Shown: positions 805 through 36,475 of the stretch, in pieces
Numbering within the stretch: the stretch's first letter is position 1
Layout of the letters: each line of letters begins with the position of its first letter
The notes under the pieces: generated by a model
Database searches by the model: none
What the model saw: the letters and a program-made list of their open reading frames with translations, nothing else
Told to the model about the DNA's origin: nothing
From: a virus
Reading direction: 5' to 3' (one strand)
Virus record (IMG/VR): IMGVR_UViG_3300044846_001468
Location: 1-43,202 of that record
DNA length: 43,202 bases
Made by a program: the position numbers and the translations under genes

Positions 805-1376
805 TCTGCATCATCTTGTTTTAATTCGTCCGAAATTTCCATCAATCGTGCGCTCAAATAATCATTCACTGCAAAGAATTCGTGATCATTGTATATCTTC
901 AATTTAATGCCTGCAACGTCCTTCGTTGGTAGTTTATCCCATTCAGATAACAATAGTTGGCCTAAGTCCTGTTTGCGTTCAAATTTGATTGGTTCATTTA
1001 CTTCTTTGATGGATAACTTGTCTGCTATTTCTTTTAACGATTGGTAGACTGCATCCGATTGTACAACTTCATAGATGGAATTATTCTGTTCGGCATCGCG
1101 TTTGCGTGCAATGGCAGTATCGCGTTCAATCATGTATTTTCGCAAGAATCCAAAAATCATTGGTTGATCCAATCGGTTATAAAATTCACCATATCTGCCA
1201 TCCAATGCAAGATTGAAGCACGTTTGAAAATCTTCCAATCGCATCATGTAGAATTCATTTGATTCAACAATTGATTCAGCACAATGAATTAACTGATTGT
1301 TGTTCATGTTACGATCCACATTCAGCAGGTGTGAAAACTTAGTCAACAATGCAAGCATCTTGGATGTAGTCATCAT
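801..1376 (-). CDS. Replication-associated phage protein, function unknown
   Basis: About 191 aa, mostly helical and polar, with no catalytic motif I recognise. It sits where helicase-loader or accessory replication genes sit in Bacteroidetes phages and loosely recalls the DUF6633-like family; that link is weak. The reading is open further upstream to an ATG at 1505, but that would overlap the preceding gene by 167 bases. The ATG at 1374-1376 (MMTTSK) is preferred because AAGGAAG lies just upstream at good spacing, leaving a 38-base overlap. Its TGA overlaps the methyltransferase ATG. No homologue is visible in the phage B part. Confidence 0.6.
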   Translation of the reverse strand: MMTTSKMLALLTKFSHLLNVDRNMNNNQLIHCAESIVESNEFYMMRLEDFQTCFNLALDGRYGEFYNRLDQPMIFGFLRKYMIERDTAIARKRDAEQNNSIYEVVQSDAVYQSLKEIADKLSIKEVNEPIKFERKQDLGQLLLSEWDKLPTKDVAGIKLKIYNDHEFFAVNDYLSARLMEISDELKQDDAE

Positions 1377-2160
1377 TTTGTCTTCCTTGCGTAGTCTGGA
1401 CAAACTCGGTGTGGTTAGACTGATATTTTGCTCTAAACTGCTCAAAGACTTCTGTTGGGTCGGCTTTTGCTCCTTTGGCAAGTTGGCCATTTGTTGGTTT
1501 TCCATTGTTTTGGGTATTAAATTTGTTTTCGTTGTTCATCCAGTTGCGCGATGCGGCCTTCCAATCCTTCATTGGGTTCTTGCCTACTCGCCATCCGTTG
1601 GCCTCGTAATAATTCCAAAATCCTTTGGAAGCTGATGTCACTTTTTCGGTAGGCCAAATGTTGCCAGCGGCCATGTTGCAGGTAGCCATGAACTCATGGA
1701 CTTCTTTCAGCTCAGGTTTTTGAAATTTGCTCGCGCGATTGTCTTTGTCTTTGTCCTTATCTTTATCCTTGTCTTTATCTTTATCTTTATCTTTAGCCCC
1801 TTGTAAGGGGCTTGTAAGGGGCTTGTAAGCCCCTAGCCCGTACTTACTCAAAAGAGCAATCACTGACTGATGAACTCGGTTTGATTCATTCAAATTTCCA
1901 TATTGAAATTCTATAAAGTCCGGGACGAAAAGTTTTGAATCTTGATCAAAAAAAACAAAGTGTTCACCAAAATTTGATTTCATTGATTCGATAGTGATCG
2001 GTGCACCAACACGAATTGATGCCACATCCAAATCAACTTGCCATATTCCAGCATGATCACAATCATCCAAGATATAAAGCCAAAGGAGTTTGTATGGGGC
2101 TTGCAAAGACCTTAATAGGGGCTTCTTCCATTTGTCTGTATCAGTAAATCGTTTTGCCAT
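1339..2160 (-). CDS. Phage replication initiator-like protein with Asp-Lys linker
   Basis: 273 aa in three parts. Residues 1-110 begin MAKRFTDTDKW and resemble the N-terminal winged-helix domain of phage replisome organisers. Residues 123-140 are alternating Asp-Lys. Residues 145-215 carry the motif NYYEANGW, then PMKDWKAASRNW. The phage B counterpart (34276-35004) has the same C-terminal motif but an unrelated N-terminus and an Asp-Ser linker, so the C-terminal part probably contacts a shared partner such as the helicase. The linker DNA contains hexamer repeats and 11-bp iteron-like repeats, and the gene follows a structured leader with a terminator-like hairpin. Initiator role is inferred. 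Confidence 0.7.
   Translation of the reverse strand: MAKRFTDTDKWKKPLLRSLQAPYKLLWLYILDDCDHAGIWQVDLDVASIRVGAPITIESMKSNFGEHFVFFDQDSKLFVPDFIEFQYGNLNESNRVHQSVIALLSKYGLGAYKPLTSPLQGAKDKDKDKDKDKDKDKDKDNRASKFQKPELKEVHEFMATCNMAAGNIWPTEKVTSASKGFWNYYEANGWRVGKNPMKDWKAASRNWMNNENKFNTQNNGKPTNGQLAKGAKADPTEVFEQFRAKYQSNHTEFVQTTQGRQNDDYIQDACIVD
1742..1833. repeat. Hexamer tract plus 11-bp iteron-like repeats, candidate replication origin
   Basis: Nine tandem hexamers (TCTTTG, TCTTTA and variants) run from 1742 to 1795. Three 11-bp units follow without a gap: TTGTAAGGGGC at 1801 and 1812, then TTGTAAGCCCC at 1823. The 11-bp period is not a multiple of three, so the encoded protein (YKPLTSPLQ) is not repeated, which argues for selection on the DNA. 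The units form inverted repeats (AGCCCCTT with AAGGGGCT). Placement inside the linker of a replication protein gene matches the layout of lambda ori in gene O. No origin activity can be read from sequence alone. Confidence 0.5.
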
Positions 2161-2171
2161 TTTTTGTGCAT

Positions 2172-2256
2172 AAAAAAAACCATTCAGCCGTTCGTGGTTG
2201 CAGCACTACTAGGCGAATGGTTTTCAATAACTTCTTTGGCTGACCTGCAACGTCAG
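2172..2256 (-). promoter_or_regulatory. Two-hairpin leader with complementary loops and T-run
   Basis: Read on the minus strand, hairpin 1 is CTGAC-GTTGCAG-GTCAG (2256-2240). Hairpin 2 has outer stem CCATTCGCC with GGC-T-GAATGG, inner stem GTG/CAC and loop CTGCAAC (2203-2197), followed by eight T (2179-2172). Loop 1 and loop 2 are perfect 7-base complements, so a kissing interaction is possible. The T-run ends 11 bases before the ATG of the replication gene, so hairpin 2 also looks like an intrinsic terminator or attenuator. Phage B has the same architecture with different sequences at 35010-35101. Confidence 0.6.
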
Positions 2257-2286: not shown

Positions 2287-2317
2287 CAAATATAAATGTG
2301 AAAAACATGTTAAGCAA
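2287..2317 (-). promoter_or_regulatory. Bacteroidota-type promoter for the replication gene leader
   Basis: On the minus strand, TTG (2317-2315), 20 bases, then TATATTTG (2294-2287) match the Bacteroidota consensus of a -33 TTG and a -7 TAnnTTTG. Transcription would start near 2282 and run into the two-hairpin leader. The -33 element overlaps the stop codon of the upstream DnaA-like gene. Confidence 0.6.
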
Positions 2318-2888
2318 TTATATCTCTGTTTTGTTTCATCAATTTCTTGCGATTGGCATTCCGGTTCATCAATGCTTCCATTCGTTTCTGAACTAAGTCG
2401 CATCCATTGACCTGCAATGCTGTTGCAATTTGACTTACACAATGCATCACTTCATCATTCATCATTTCAATTTCATTGTCTATGGCCTTGCGTGCATGAA
2501 TAATTGTGGCGTGGTCATAATTGCCAAAAACAAAATTGCTGATCTCAACCAATGTGTAACTGGTGCAGGTACGCAATGCCCAAAAGAATGTTTGCCTTGC
2601 TCGTACATGCTGCCTGTGCCTTCTTCCTGTTGCCCATTGCTGCATTGGTCCGTTGACAAGTTCGCATACATCACGAATGATGTTTAACTTTTTTTCATTG
2701 CCAATTAATTCTGCCAATAATTTGCTTTCAACAGGCTGCAAATGCTTGTCAACTTCACTGGACAAATAGCTGCGATATTGATTGCCGACTTTGAACAAAA
2801 CTTGATCTTGTGTGCCTGTGCCAGATTGCACAGACACGATTCCAATTTTGATCGCAAGATGTTCGCCTAACAAATAGTGCTTGCTCAT
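2310..2888 (-). CDS. DnaA domain IV-like DNA-binding protein
   Basis: 192 aa. Residues about 90-140 resemble the C-terminal HTH of DnaA: RHRQHVRARQ, then NYDHATIIHARK, the counterpart of the DnaA signature that contacts the DnaA box. There is no AAA+ ATPase, so it could bind origin-like DNA but not open it alone. The phage B homologue (35900-36475) keeps the arginine-rich and HYATVIYAK parts. Position beside the leader and the putative initiator suggests a role in replication initiation or its control. Confidence 0.7.
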   Translation of the reverse strand: MSKHYLLGEHLAIKIGIVSVQSGTGTQDQVLFKVGNQYRSYLSSEVDKHLQPVESKLLAELIGNEKKLNIIRDVCELVNGPMQQWATGRRHRQHVRARQTFFWALRTCTSYTLVEISNFVFGNYDHATIIHARKAIDNEIEMMNDEVMHCVSQIATALQVNGCDLVQKRMEALMNRNANRKKLMKQNRDIIA

Positions 2889-31888: not shown

Positions 31889-32497
31889 TTATAATAATTT
31901 TGATTTTACAATTTGAATGATTTGATTGCCGATTATTTCTCTGCAAATATCAGCAGTTTGCATTTGGCTGTTTTTACGAGCAGCAGCATAAGCAGCAGCA
32001 TCAGCAGCATAAGCAGCAGCATCAGCAGCATAAGCAGCATCAGCAGCATAAGCAGCAGCATCAGCAGCATAAGCAGCATCAGCAGCATAAGCAGCAGCAT
32101 AAGCAGCAGCATCAGCAGCATAAGCAGCATCAGCAGCATAAGCAGCATAAGCAGCAGCAGCAGCATAAGCAGCAGCATCAGCATAAGCAGCAGCATCAGC
32201 AGCATCAGCAGCAGCTTTTAACTCATCATCGCTTATCAATCCATTGCCATAATCAATAGCCGCTTTTACAGCTGCCTTGCTTCGATCATCATTCATTAAA
32301 CCAATGACAGTTTCCGCGCACTTGCCCTTCGTTAAAGTTAGCGATATTTTATCCACGTTGATTTTATAAGCAAGCCAAAGAAGCCAATCGCCTCTATGAC
32401 ATTGTATAACTACTTCTTCAATGGTTTTTCCTTGTGCCCATTCTCGTGCGATATCGCAAGCGTTTATTTCTTGCAGAAATTGATTAAGTTGTTTCAT
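31889..32497 (-). CDS. Ala/Asp/Tyr-repeat helical protein
   Basis: 202 aa. The first 95 residues (ACDIAREWAQGK, CHRGDWLLWLAYKI) match the start of a family seen in phages and bacteria, some members annotated as immunity-like. Residues about 96-174 are built from AADAA, AYA and similar units. The tail ends QTADICREIIG. The repeat would form a long amphipathic helix array. Function unknown; possibly a structural or inhibitor protein. Confidence 0.65.
   Translation of the reverse strand: MKQLNQFLQEINACDIAREWAQGKTIEEVVIQCHRGDWLLWLAYKINVDKISLTLTKGKCAETVIGLMNDDRSKAAVKAAIDYGNGLISDDELKAAADAADAAAYADAAAYAAAAAYAAYAADAAYAADAAAYAAAYAADAAYAADAAAYAADAAYAADAAAYAADAAAYAAARKNSQMQTADICREIIGNQIIQIVKSKLL
31979..32216. 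repeat. Trinucleotide-based tandem repeat coding Ala/Asp/Tyr
   Basis: Irregular tandem array of CAGCAT, AAGCAG and CAG units, all multiples of three, inside the gene above. All six frames stay open across it, so length changes by slippage would not break the protein. Confidence 0.85.
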
Positions 32498-32920: not shown

Positions 32921-34279
32921 TTAAAATGGAACTGAATTAGATTGGAATGTTTTGATCTCAGTGTACTGGGCAATGTGTGGAACGAACGTTAATTGACTTG
33001 TTCCCATGCTTCCGTTGCGATTCTTTGCGATTATAAACTCAGCCATCCCTCGCGTGTCGTTTCCGTCCATATCCCTTCCATCGTCGTAGTAGTCCGAGCG
33101 ATAAAGGAAACCTACGATGTCGGCATCTTGCTCTATGGCTCCCGATTCCCTTAAATCTGATAGCATAGGCCGCTTATCCGTTCTCGTTTCCACATTCCTA
33201 GACAGTTGGCTCAATGCCACGATAGGTATCTTTAACTCCTTAGCCACGACTTTGAGCGTTCTACTGATCTCACTGATCTCATTCTCTCTATTCCCACGTT
33301 GGCTGCCTTGGATAAGTTGGATATAATCCACATAAATGATCTGAACTCCGTACAAGTCGCGCATGGTTCGCGCTCGTGTTCTAAATTGCGCGATGTTTAA
33401 CCCTGCTTTATCGCACAAATAGATGGGCAAGTTGTCAATTTTTGACAAGTTTAGGTTTATGAACTCCAACTCACTTGCCAACATACTTTTTTTCATTGTG
33501 TTTTCAAGGCTCAAATTCATGACTTGGGAGAGTATGCGGTATGTCAACTGCTCGTTGCTCATTTCAAGCGAAAATACGGCCACTTTAACGCCATTTTGGG
33601 CCTGCCTAATCGCGGTCGAGAGAATGAAAGCAGTCTTACCCATTCCAGGACGTGCTCCGATGACCATCAAATCAGAGTTGCCAATGAATCCGATATTGGC
33701 ATCTACGCTTCGCAAATACGTCTTAACGCCTTGGGTAATTTGACCGCTTGCCCTCATTCCAATTTCATTGAGTACCGACGGGATCACATCGCGTAGTGAA
33801 GTCATATCGGTTGCCGTGGTCGTTGGGGTCAGTGACTTGCCAAGCTCGTCGACCATTGCAGATACATCGTCGATGGTATTAGATTCATCAAAGCAACTTT
33901 GGTAAATTGCAAGGGCTCGCATGGAAGCGTCGCGCATCATTCGCTTCTCTTTGATGAAGTAGCAATACCCCGAAAGTTGATCCCAGTACACAACCGAGTG
34001 GTTTGTCATCGCTGCCACTTCGCTCACTTCGACGTTCGCCATCTTGCCCAAGGTTCGGATCTTCTTCGCTACCGATAGCAGGTCCACACGTTCGCCTGCC
34101 GCGTGAAGGTCAACAATGACCCCAAAGATTGTAGAGTGCTTGGGATTGTAGAAGTCGTTTGGCTCAAGGATCGATGTTATCTCAGTGAGGTTGCGATTGT
34201 CTTGTAGGCAAGTGCTGAGTATCGCTTGCTCATGTTCAATCGAATGGGGTGGTATCTTGTGAAGTAGTGCTTCGCTCAT
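32921..34279 (-). CDS. dnaB: Replicative DNA helicase, DnaB family
   Basis: 452 aa from ATG 34277-34279. The N-terminal domain (EHEQAILSTCLQD) and the RecA-like C-terminal domain with Walker A GARPGMGKT (about 208-216), YVDYIQLI (Walker B), LSQLSRNVE and DLRESGAIEQDADIV are all present. It unwinds the phage fork as a hexamer. The start overlaps the stop of the upstream DUF6291-type gene (ATGA), so both are made together. The contig shows no DnaB for phage A, probably because that part is missing. Confidence 0.93.
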   Translation of the reverse strand: MSEALLHKIPPHSIEHEQAILSTCLQDNRNLTEITSILEPNDFYNPKHSTIFGVIVDLHAAGERVDLLSVAKKIRTLGKMANVEVSEVAAMTNHSVVYWDQLSGYCYFIKEKRMMRDASMRALAIYQSCFDESNTIDDVSAMVDELGKSLTPTTTATDMTSLRDVIPSVLNEIGMRASGQITQGVKTYLRSVDANIGFIGNSDLMVIGARPGMGKTAFILSTAIRQAQNGVKVAVFSLEMSNEQLTYRILSQVMNLSLENTMKKSMLASELEFINLNLSKIDNLPIYLCDKAGLNIAQFRTRARTMRDLYGVQIIYVDYIQLIQGSQRGNRENEISEISRTLKVVAKELKIPIVALSQLSRNVETRTDKRPMLSDLRESGAIEQDADIVGFLYRSDYYDDGRDMDGNDTRGMAEFIIAKNRNGSMGTSQLTFVPHIAQYTEIKTFQSNSVPF

Positions 34280-35004
34280 GTGTAGATAGTTCTTTTTGTC
34301 GCGGGCCGCTCGGCGCAACTTGTTTGTGGATTGTTTTTAGCATTTTGATTAAGCAACCAATTTCTAGTCGTTGCTTTCCAATCTTTCATCGGAGATTTAC
34401 CAATGGTCCAACCTTTCGATTCGTAGTAGTTGAACATCTTTGACGATTCAAGTTGTAGGAATTGTTTTGCATAAGTTTGATTCTTTGATTGTGTGTACTC
34501 AATCATATAGGCGAAGATATCATCTTGCGCAGGTTTGACAAAGATAGTCCGTGTGGATTTTTTTGGTGGAGAACTTTGTTCGACTATACATTCACTATCA
34601 TTAACACTAACACTATCACTATCACTATCACTAACACTAACACTATCACTATCGGCTTTTTTGGGTTTGTTTGGGTTTTTTAATAACCCAAAATAACCCA
34701 CTGGGTTTTTTGGCTTTTCTTGGGTTTCTTCTTTCTCCGATTGATTATCAGTACTTTGACGTGGCCTACCTCCTTTTGCCCCATTTTTCGCATTGCGTTC
34801 GATGGTAGCCTGCCACTTACCTTCATCGCGCTTAAATTGCTGAACGAATGGCTCAAGTACAATCTGAATGAGAGTATCGTCAGTGGGTTCTATTCCATTT
34901 TGCACGTTCCTAATTGCCTTAAACAACTTACCCGCTTGTTCGTCGGTTAGTCGGTCGAGTATGCAAAGTGAATCTTTGTGAATAACGAATGACTTTTTTT
35001 CCAT
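34276..35004 (-). CDS. DUF6291-type replication protein with Asp-Ser linker
   Basis: 242 aa from ATG 35002-35004. The N-terminal 85 residues (KSFVIHKDSLCILDRLTDEQ) match DUF6291. A linker of Ser, Asp and Val repeats follows. The C-terminus (MFNYYESKGW, then PMKDWKATTRNW) is shared with the phage A initiator-like protein. Coupled to dnaB, so a helicase-loading or initiator role is likely. An in-frame upstream extension runs through the terminator-like leader and is rejected. Confidence 0.7.
   Translation of the reverse strand: MEKKSFVIHKDSLCILDRLTDEQAGKLFKAIRNVQNGIEPTDDTLIQIVLEPFVQQFKRDEGKWQATIERNAKNGAKGGRPRQSTDNQSEKEETQEKPKNPVGYFGLLKNPNKPKKADSDSVSVSDSDSDSVSVNDSECIVEQSSPPKKSTRTIFVKPAQDDIFAYMIEYTQSKNQTYAKQFLQLESSKMFNYYESKGWTIGKSPMKDWKATTRNWLLNQNAKNNPQTSCAERPATKRTIYT
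34591..34728. repeat. Hexamer tract plus 10-bp phased repeats, candidate origin of phage B
   Basis: Hexamers (ATCACT, AACACT) run from 34591 to 34653. Then GGGTT occurs at 34663 and 34673, AACCC at 34685 and 34695, and GGGTT at 34703 and 34722. Spacing within pairs is 10 bp, one helical turn and not a multiple of three. Same order and same place in the gene as in phage A (1742-1833), with different sequence. This suggests an iteron-type origin inside the replication gene. Confidence 0.5.
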
Positions 35005-35009
35005 AGCAT

Positions 35010-35101
35010 AAAAAAAAATCCCACTGGGTTCGGAATGCAGCTCCTCGCCCAATGGGAAATTAATACTTTTTAATGTGTTCAATCGCTGCATGAATGAACA
35101 C
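35010..35101 (-). promoter_or_regulatory. Two-hairpin leader with complementary loops and T-run (phage B)
   Basis: Read on the minus strand, hairpin 1 is GTGTTCA/TGAACAC with ATGCAGC in its 13-base loop (35091-35085). Hairpin 2 has outer stem TCCCATTGGG/CCCAGTGGGA, inner stem GGA/TCC and loop GCTGCAT (35041-35035), then nine T. Loop 2 is the exact complement of ATGCAGC. The ATG follows the T-run by 5 bases. A GAA internal loop is common to both phages. Attenuator, ligand sensor or origin-linked RNA are possible roles. Confidence 0.6.
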
Positions 35102-35103
35102 CA

Positions 35104-35135
35104 CAAATATAATCGAAATCACATTAAAGTGCCAA
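35104..35135 (-). promoter_or_regulatory. Promoter of the DUF6291-dnaB operon
   Basis: TTG (35135-35133), 21 bases, then TATATTTG (35111-35104). Transcription would start near 35099, at the base of leader hairpin 1. The equivalent phage A promoter has the same -7 sequence. Confidence 0.6.
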
Positions 35136-35139
35136 CTTG

Positions 35140-35880
35140 TTAATATCTCAAATTAACTTTCTCGCGGCGGCGGTAGTTGTAAATTTCTTCGATTAGCACT
35201 TTGTAATTGCTGATGTTTGTGCAGTCCTGCAAAGCAGTAGGTTGTACTTTCAACTTCTGCAGAAACTCAGTAAATTCAAAATTTGGATTTCTAAATAAGG
35301 ACATCATTGTATAAATGAACGCTCTTCTTCTTACACCGACATAATAAGGCTCAATCATCATGATTTTTTCAATCATATCTTCCGCATACTTCAATGACTT
35401 GATCTTAAAATCTCCGCTATAAAAAACATCAATATCAATCTTGTTGGGTATTCCTGATAAAAGCGACATTGTTTCATTGTGACCTAAATTATACTTCGCT
35501 TTGAAAGCGGCATATTTCAAATAATCTTCATATCCCATGTTAGAGTACCCAGTCAAATAATCGTCCGCGTTCCAAGTTTTTGAGTTTTGGTTAAGGATGT
35601 GAACCTCATTCAGTCCATAACCTTCGCACATGACGTAGTGCAATGGTAAATTGAGTTCCTGAATAACGTCGAAGCGATGTTGCCCGTCAATGATCTCATA
35701 GTTCTCATTCACCACAATGATCGTGAATAGGTAATTCTCTGCCATCGACTTTTTCAATCGATTGATGTGGAGTAGGTTTTTGTTTCGGTTGCCATCTATC
35801 GACTTGAATAGAAAGTAATCCGTTGTCGTGTGAACTTGGTTACTATGCTTCACCATTGGTTCTACGTTTGATTTGTTCAT
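35140..35880 (-). CDS. ParB-like nuclease-domain protein
   Basis: 246 aa from ATG 35878-35880. The ParB/sulfiredoxin motif IIDGQHRFDVI is preceded by LKKSMAENYLFTIIVVNENY. The C-terminal half is helical and unknown. Many phages encode such proteins near replication genes; some act as transcription modulators or nucleases. An upstream in-frame ATG at 35916 would overlap the previous gene by 17 bases. A+T-rich relative to its neighbours. Confidence 0.65.
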   Translation of the reverse strand: MNKSNVEPMVKHSNQVHTTTDYFLFKSIDGNRNKNLLHINRLKKSMAENYLFTIIVVNENYEIIDGQHRFDVIQELNLPLHYVMCEGYGLNEVHILNQNSKTWNADDYLTGYSNMGYEDYLKYAAFKAKYNLGHNETMSLLSGIPNKIDIDVFYSGDFKIKSLKYAEDMIEKIMMIEPYYVGVRRRAFIYTMMSLFRNPNFEFTEFLQKLKVQPTALQDCTNISNYKVLIEEIYNYRRREKVNLRY

Positions 35881-35899
35881 TTGATTTTTATTGATTAAA

Positions 35900-36475
35900 T
35901 TATTGTAATAACTCACGATTTTCTCGCATTAACCTTTTCGCGTGTGCAATCGAGTTACTGCCCTGAATGAGTTTGATGTGTTTGAGTAGCCGCTTGTCAC
36001 CTACCTGAGCCACTGCCGCCGCAATGACCTCTAGTCGATCCATGACTATTGGGTCGTTCATCTGAATAGCTTGATCGATTTGATTTTTGGCGTAGATGAC
36101 GGTGGCGTAATGGAACTTCACCGGCAGCAACTCACCAATACTCACAATGGTGTGCGTAGTCGAACCTCTCACCGCCCAAAAGAACAAAGACCTAGCGATC
36201 ACTACATCGCGCCTCCGATTATTCACCGCCCAAACGTGAATTGGACCAAATAGATTTTCGAGCGTTCTAATGATGGTTTGAACTTTGATCTCGTTCATCA
36301 CTTTGATGGGATCCGTTCCGCTCAATTTTACACCTTCCTTTTGGTTAATTGGCACGGCTACGTACCTAATCCCGTCGTTGAATAGCTTGAAAGCCTCCGC
36401 GATCTGGCCATTGTAGACCGCTACTTCGCCCAGGGACGTCATCGCGCTTGTGTTAATTTGATTTAGTTCATTCAT
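35900..36475 (-). CDS. DnaA domain IV-like DNA-binding protein (phage B)
   Basis: 191 aa from ATG 36473-36475. NNRRRDVVIARSLFFWAV, then FHYATVIYAKNQ, correspond to DnaA domain IV. The homologue is 2310-2888. It overlaps the HTH gene upstream by 8 bases. Likely binds origin or leader DNA. Confidence 0.65.
   Translation of the reverse strand: MNELNQINTSAMTSLGEVAVYNGQIAEAFKLFNDGIRYVAVPINQKEGVKLSGTDPIKVMNEIKVQTIIRTLENLFGPIHVWAVNNRRRDVVIARSLFFWAVRGSTTHTIVSIGELLPVKFHYATVIYAKNQIDQAIQMNDPIVMDRLEVIAAAVAQVGDKRLLKHIKLIQGSNSIAHAKRLMRENRELLQ

Follow-up and report, generated by a model that had tools for sequence, protein, structure and literature searches.

In the kissing complexes of ColE1, neither stem is disrupted when the 7-nt loops pair completely. 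In the IncK and IncB plasmids, single loop bases decide incompatibility (PMC10724649). Among phages, IsrK and the P4 CI RNA are leaders that terminate and yield a short RNA directed at a transcript of the same element (PMC4825925). The leaders described here carry two hairpins (P1 and P2) with complementary loops at the head of a replication operon, and they make up what appears to be an undescribed and widespread class of RNA with covariation support, present in environmental and cultured phages of Bacteroidota. A search of open-licence papers returned analogues, but no description of such a leader, and the Rfam covariance models, run on the window and 18 loci, gave no match above the gathering threshold at the leaders and a single tRNA only.

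Two leaders in one virus record

The window (the whole stretch of DNA that was analysed, positions 1-43202 of a 43-kb IMG/VR record) contains more than one genome length, from two related phages, with direct repeats 32-33 kb apart (repeat pairs 10908/42973 and 7006/39981); the layout of related contigs agrees with this, and the window could originate from tandem prophages or from an assembly chimera. Because more than one genome length is present, leaders A and B represent one locus in two relatives. Coordinates, loops, stems, T-runs and promoters of both leaders are those given in a first-pass annotation of the letters, and the RNA is on the minus strand. Within the coding sequence of an ORF at 31889-32497, units of 9 and 12 nt are tandemly repeated (31940-32269, 23 registers).

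Leader A and its neighbours:
2310-2888, minus strand: upstream gene, DnaA C-terminal HTH protein (PF08299), co-oriented
2314-2317, minus strand: -33 element TTGC, from the sequence, 19 nt before the -7 element
2287-2294, minus strand: -7 element TATATTTG, from the sequence and also by pattern search
2240-2256, minus strand: hairpin P1, stem CTGAC/GTCAG, 7-nt loop GTTGCAG (2245-2251)
2180-2220, minus strand: hairpin P2, terminator-like, 7-nt loop CTGCAAC (2197-2203), complement of the P1 loop
2172-2179, minus strand: U8 run after P2 (A8 on the plus strand), from the sequence
1339-2160, minus strand: first gene after the leader, replication protein phrog_15768, ATG at 2160

Leader B and its neighbours:
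35140-35916, minus strand: ParB-like gene directly upstream, co-oriented, used as search anchor
35132-35135, minus strand: -33 element TTGG, from the sequence, 20 nt before the -7 element
35104-35111, minus strand: -7 element TATATTTG, from the sequence and pattern search
35075-35101, minus strand: hairpin P1, stem GTGTTCA/TGAACAC, with ATGCAGC (35085-35091) within the loop
35019-35057, minus strand: hairpin P2, terminator-like, 7-nt loop GCTGCAT (35035-35041), complement of P1
35010-35018, minus strand: U9 run after P2, from the sequence
34276-35004, minus strand: first gene after the leader, DUF6291 / phrog_15768 replication protein, ATG at 35004
32921-34318, minus strand: DnaB-like helicase, which follows in the replication operon

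The P2 hairpin of leader A is composed of an outer stem CCATTCGCC/GGCuGAATGG and an inner stem GTG/CAC (in minus-strand order, CCATTCGCC...GTG-CTGCAAC-CAC...GGCTGAATGG, then U8), has a predicted energy of about -12 kcal/mol alone and is separated from P1 by a linker of 19-23 nt. Its counterpart in leader B contains an outer stem TCCCATTGGG/CCCAGTGGGA, a CGA/GAA internal loop and an inner stem GGA/TCC, and is predicted at -21 kcal/mol alone. RNA folding recovers P1 and the outer P2 stem of both leaders; the z-score of leader A is only -1.5, that of leader B -4.0.

Leaders A, B, L083 and L401 all have GAA on the 3' side of the P2 internal loop, and three of them have CGA or GGA on its 5' side, a candidate tandem G.A motif that might bind a protein. 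The P1 loop of leader B contains an ATG whose frame continues through P2 into rep (window 35091-35004, minus strand), so that Rep could possibly have an extended N terminus or be fused to a leader peptide.

The leader had been described as standing before the replication gene. It does lie near replication genes, but this wording is too narrow, because rep is not always the first gene after it. The first gene of L066 codes for a helicase-like protein (by its sequence) and that of L068 for a 72-aa protein, both with rep later, and the operons of L122 (by its sequence) and phi46:3 (as annotated) begin with an HNH nuclease; the leader therefore belongs to the replication operon and not to a single gene. 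The promoter consensus of Bacteroidota is TTTG/TAnnTTTG, and a promoter lies directly before P1, with the upstream genes co-oriented with the leader. In most cases the first start codon lies only 3-40 nt from the U-run of P2, which leaves no room for a further promoter, so that the operon must be read through P2.

Complementary loops in relatives and cultured phages

Relatives were collected by tblastn-anchored scans of IMG/VR, using rep proteins, upstream proteins and the ParB-like neighbour as queries. They share one layout, formed by a Bacteroidota-type promoter, P1, a linker of 15-28 nt, P2 with its U-run and the start codon, in leaders of unrelated sequence, and both promoter and U-run are kept throughout. 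The apical loop of P2 usually has 7 nt and pairs with the P1 loop over its whole length (loop sizes assigned automatically to the full set of leaders were noisy and were left out of the counts). The exact 7-base match claimed for A and B thus recurs in many relatives of unrelated sequence, and a conservation proposed for two phages extends far beyond them. Two fully complementary 7-nt loops are present in A, B, L083, L068, L202, L134 and L195 and in a family of 80 loci (here the S family); L083 keeps the layout of A and B with wholly different bases.

P1/P2 loops of relatives and of cultured phages:
L083: GTAGGAG/CTCCTAC
L071: GGTGAAG/CTTCACC
L068: GTAGAAG/CTTCTAC
L202: GTAGGAT/ATCCTAC
L195: GTACGAG/CTCGTAC
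L134: GTTGCAG/CTGCAAC
L059: TGGGAAC/GTTCCCA
L053: CTACCACA/TGTGGTAG
L127: AGTCGAGC/GCTCGACT
L122: AGTCCAGC/GCTGGACT
L401: GTCGGAT/ATCCGAC
L318: GTGAGAAC/GTTCTCAC
L319: GTGAAACC/GGTTTCAC
Flavobacterium phage 11b: CGGGCAGG/CCTGCCCG
Cellulophaga phages phi13:2, phi19:3 and phi46:3: CTCTCACAA/TTGTGAGAG
Cellulophaga phage phi18:3: CTTCTGAC/GTCAGAAG, adjoining a nearly identical promoter flank

The rep proteins of L083 (2998-3726) and the window (34276-35004) are almost identical in their C-terminal halves, with unrelated N-terminal halves and leaders, which by sequence is a module swap inside the gene. The leaders of L366-L390 and L303-L310 contain a second, nested complementarity beside the kissing loops that seems to covary by eye (TGACTCC/GGAGTCA and TGGAAGT/ACTTCCA in L388; GTAGTTA/TAACTAC and TTCGCGT/ACGCGAA in L305).

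Among cultured phages, the leader was found in the Flavobacterium phages elemo and 11b and in the four Cellulophaga phages listed above. Elemo isolates with almost identical DNA carry two different loop sequences, or codes (TGAGAGC/GCTCTCA in elemoC and GTGAGATG/CATCTCAC in elemoA 13-1A), and despite this the 28-nt linker and the 3' end of P2 are identical, making these isolates a natural system in which to study RNA-coded replication control or mutual exclusion. The elemo variants L219 and L214 also differ a few hundred bases before the leader, where tRNA-Met stands in one and tRNA-Ala in the other, a second exchanged island. The leader is not universal: it was not found directly before rep in Riemerella phage RAP44, nor in the same position in some relatives, nor directly upstream at any of four prophage loci in host genome contigs. 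In phages 6H and B124-14, scanning the whole genome turned up no matches beyond the kind that shuffles also give. Since this loose scan yields about 0-2 chance matches per genome in shuffles, single weak cases are not secure.

Complementarity was measured in 26 leaders chosen for promoter, terminator hairpin and following gene, blind to complementarity. In 13 of them the two parts match exactly in cis over 7 nt or more, to be compared with a mean of 1.85 and a maximum of 6 when P1 and P2 parts were swapped between leaders (300 permutations). The S family, which was fetched through a 142-aa upstream protein and not through the leader, contains six codes, and the whole 7-nt P2 loop is complementary to P1 in 79 of its 80 loci; the remaining locus, L274, differs by one A.C mismatch and is possibly an intermediate or a chimera. 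An alignment of 26 distinct S-family rows bears out the covariation with pairing kept that had been proposed from A and B. In the kissing helix, 99.5% of the cells are paired and 61 of 182 are changed on both sides, with no one-sided change; covariation is 0.808, against 0.202 in shuffled and 0-0.149 in slid alignments, and partners slid by 1-3 columns pair in only 25-34%. The P1 and P2 stems covary as well. The kissing-hairpin structure and its covariation are, with very little doubt, real.

The codes are diverse even among close relatives. Within the S family, where the six codes occur 18, 18, 17, 12, 11 and 3 times, the mean difference is 0.39 at the kissing sites, 0.30 at four-fold sites of the upstream gene and 0.000 in the invariant 18-nt linker. 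None of the 11 pairs with less than 0.5% divergence in the upstream gene differ in code, and 73% of the 22 pairs with 0.5-2% divergence do. Codes are tied more tightly to the downstream rep, with 18% of 11 pairs differing at 0.5-2% divergence; module exchange therefore contributes to the diversity. Fast, shuffled, evenly represented and strictly self-complementary, the codes are suggestive of a specificity locus. A pairing of 4-5 bp between the S-family linker and the 5' arm of P2 was considered as a general antiterminator and rejected, because it is not seen by eye in A, B and elemo.

A probable attenuator and its alternatives

Three functions had been put forward for the leader: an attenuator sensing a replication protein, an antisense-type copy control and a primer RNA. 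The attenuator fits best, although sensing of one rep protein fits poorly, because one code precedes different reps and the code varies freely. The classical countertranscript form of copy control is unsupported, as antisense promoter-like boxes are not enriched (9 of 71 leaders, against a background of 19%). Attenuation of the replication operon is likely, and the main argument from the sequence is that expression of the operon requires reading through P2, a GC-containing hairpin with a U-run that, together with a promoter, precedes the first start codon. Energies predicted for P2 alone range from -12 to -34 kcal/mol, and the predicted fold leaves most of the loop unpaired, so that the default would probably be termination and release of a short RNA.

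We give somewhat better than an even chance to the reading of the leader as a whole as a cis-kissing terminator/attenuator of the replication operon, with the code as an allelic specificity element and competition in trans. Transcription would start at a sigma-A-type promoter just before P1 (the start sites are predicted), and P1 would fold first and present its loop. P2 would follow, predicted to be strong enough alone as an intrinsic terminator, and its loop would pair completely with that of P1. By default an RNA of roughly 75-110 nt would be released, and the replication operon would be expressed by read-through only. The kiss would alter the behaviour of P2, somewhat more probably as a clamp supporting termination than by opposing it; as the complementarity is confined to the loops, the P2 stem can persist during the kiss, a slight point in favour of the clamp. 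P2 is also predicted to fold without the kiss, so that the kiss may serve a purpose other than termination. The kiss sequence would serve as the allelic code: since both loops would be present on each released RNA, RNAs of one code could vie in trans for the loops of leaders still being transcribed, and expression of the replication genes would then track the dosage of same-code genomes, as copy control or superinfection immunity. Such code-specific action in trans is a tentative proposal, rather less probable than not, and the dosage model is weakened because intramolecular kissing should out-compete pairing in trans; part of the code diversity may be module swapping, since there is partial linkage between a code and the rep module that follows it. 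A bolder version, which we think rather doubtful, is a self-recognition RNA of an altogether new kind, with one code of balanced frequency per lineage, whose released leader would recognise same-code leaders and gate the replication operon; if true, Bacteroidota phages would have RNA-coded incompatibility or immunity groups. Codes that differ between close relatives and still match themselves suggest an undescribed RNA switch governing the timing of phage replication, and perhaps the rivals against which a phage replicates. The leaders also provide kissing terminators for Bacteroidota as a set that is compact and orthogonal.

The chief rival to the clamp is anti-termination in cis, in which P1 would catch the emerging P2 loop and delay closure of P2, letting the polymerase read through, and a same-code leader RNA would block P1 in trans and restore termination, a negative feedback like that of IncI-alpha or P4 immunity. 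It would explain how transcription escapes a hairpin that is predicted to be a strong terminator alone, and allelic codes fit inhibition in trans; it is nevertheless unlikely, because the complementarity is loop-only and the stems of kissed ColE1 loops stay intact, so that the kissed state should still hold the terminator. Control of translation, either by a kissed fold that hides or presents the ribosome site or by a leader peptide that melts P2, would suit a P2 end 3-40 nt from the start codon and the frame open across P2 in 18 of 40 leaders with an upstream ATG. Yet 39% of all frames crossing P2 are open anyway (53 of 135), so that leader ORFs are overall not above chance, and the U-run, kept throughout, would not be needed, all of which makes this explanation improbable. 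A frame of 30-37 codons runs from the linker (often starting ATGAAA) across P2 in L054, L053, L076, L201, L213 and L385, with peptide-like conservation within some subfamilies.

No more probable is an arms race, in which a host or satellite RNA or protein would target the loops and phages would vary the code, keeping the cis match for folding. Loops that equal or exceed four-fold sites in their rate of variation beside a fixed linker, and codes shuffled among close relatives, are what such a conflict would leave; against it, no targeting partner was found, and a generic nuclease or CRISPR would hit the invariant linker too. The leaders are always near replication genes and the kiss would work in single-stranded DNA as well, as expected of an origin structure (a primer RNA or single-strand initiation hairpins, not a regulator), but in every case the Bacteroidota promoter shares its strand with the U-run, the leader stays at the head of the operon where other genes come before rep, no test here points to an origin and nothing seen here speaks for a primer RNA, so that we regard this as very improbable indeed.

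Comparison with described RNA controls

ColE1 RNA I / RNA II share with these leaders fully complementary 7-nt loops, specificity set by the loops and control of the replication of a mobile element; here, in contrast, a single transcript carries both loops, antisense promoter boxes gave no sign of a countertranscript, and one of the hairpins is itself the predicted terminator. The repZ (repA) leaders of IncI-alpha, IncB and IncL/M plasmids also place two distant complementary loops before a replication gene, and their loop changes create new incompatibility groups (PMC10724649). In the IncI-alpha type, an antisense Inc RNA from the opposite strand controls translation, whereas antisense promoters are not enriched here and the U-run is conserved; the loop-loop pseudoknot of repZ has its counterpart here, but its antisense RNA finds no support in the promoter boxes, and ORFs for a translated leader peptide are not above chance overall. 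The attenuator of pT181 resembles the leaders in transcriptional attenuation before a replication gene (predicted here), but it is driven by a countertranscript, which was not seen.

Among phage RNAs, the P4 CI RNA is also a replication-operon leader with internal complementary sequences and premature termination (PMC4825925), termination being predicted in our case. The P4 RNA (considered with the C4 immunity of phage P1) is processed and pairs with flanking single sequences, in different hosts; it has no fixed two-hairpin kissing terminator and no sequence relation to these leaders. IsrK of Gifsy-1 has a similar promoter-terminator leader, giving a short RNA and a read-through mRNA, with the short RNA acting on its own mRNA (PMC4825925), but it targets translation of an anti-repressor and lacks a pair of kissing hairpins with allelic codes. 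The put RNA of HK022 is likewise an early phage leader of about 70 nt with two hairpins that alters termination, although it acts on distant terminators through RNA polymerase (PMC9378689) and has a conserved sequence without a kissing code or a terminator of its own; the leaders described here, wholly different in sequence between families and with the terminator within the element, are not of the put type.

Because the search for a countertranscript gave no support, the leader is not filed under the known kissing-loop replication controls. It works like them, and is best called a variant of the RNA-based replication leaders, although a new class of RNA is a real possibility.
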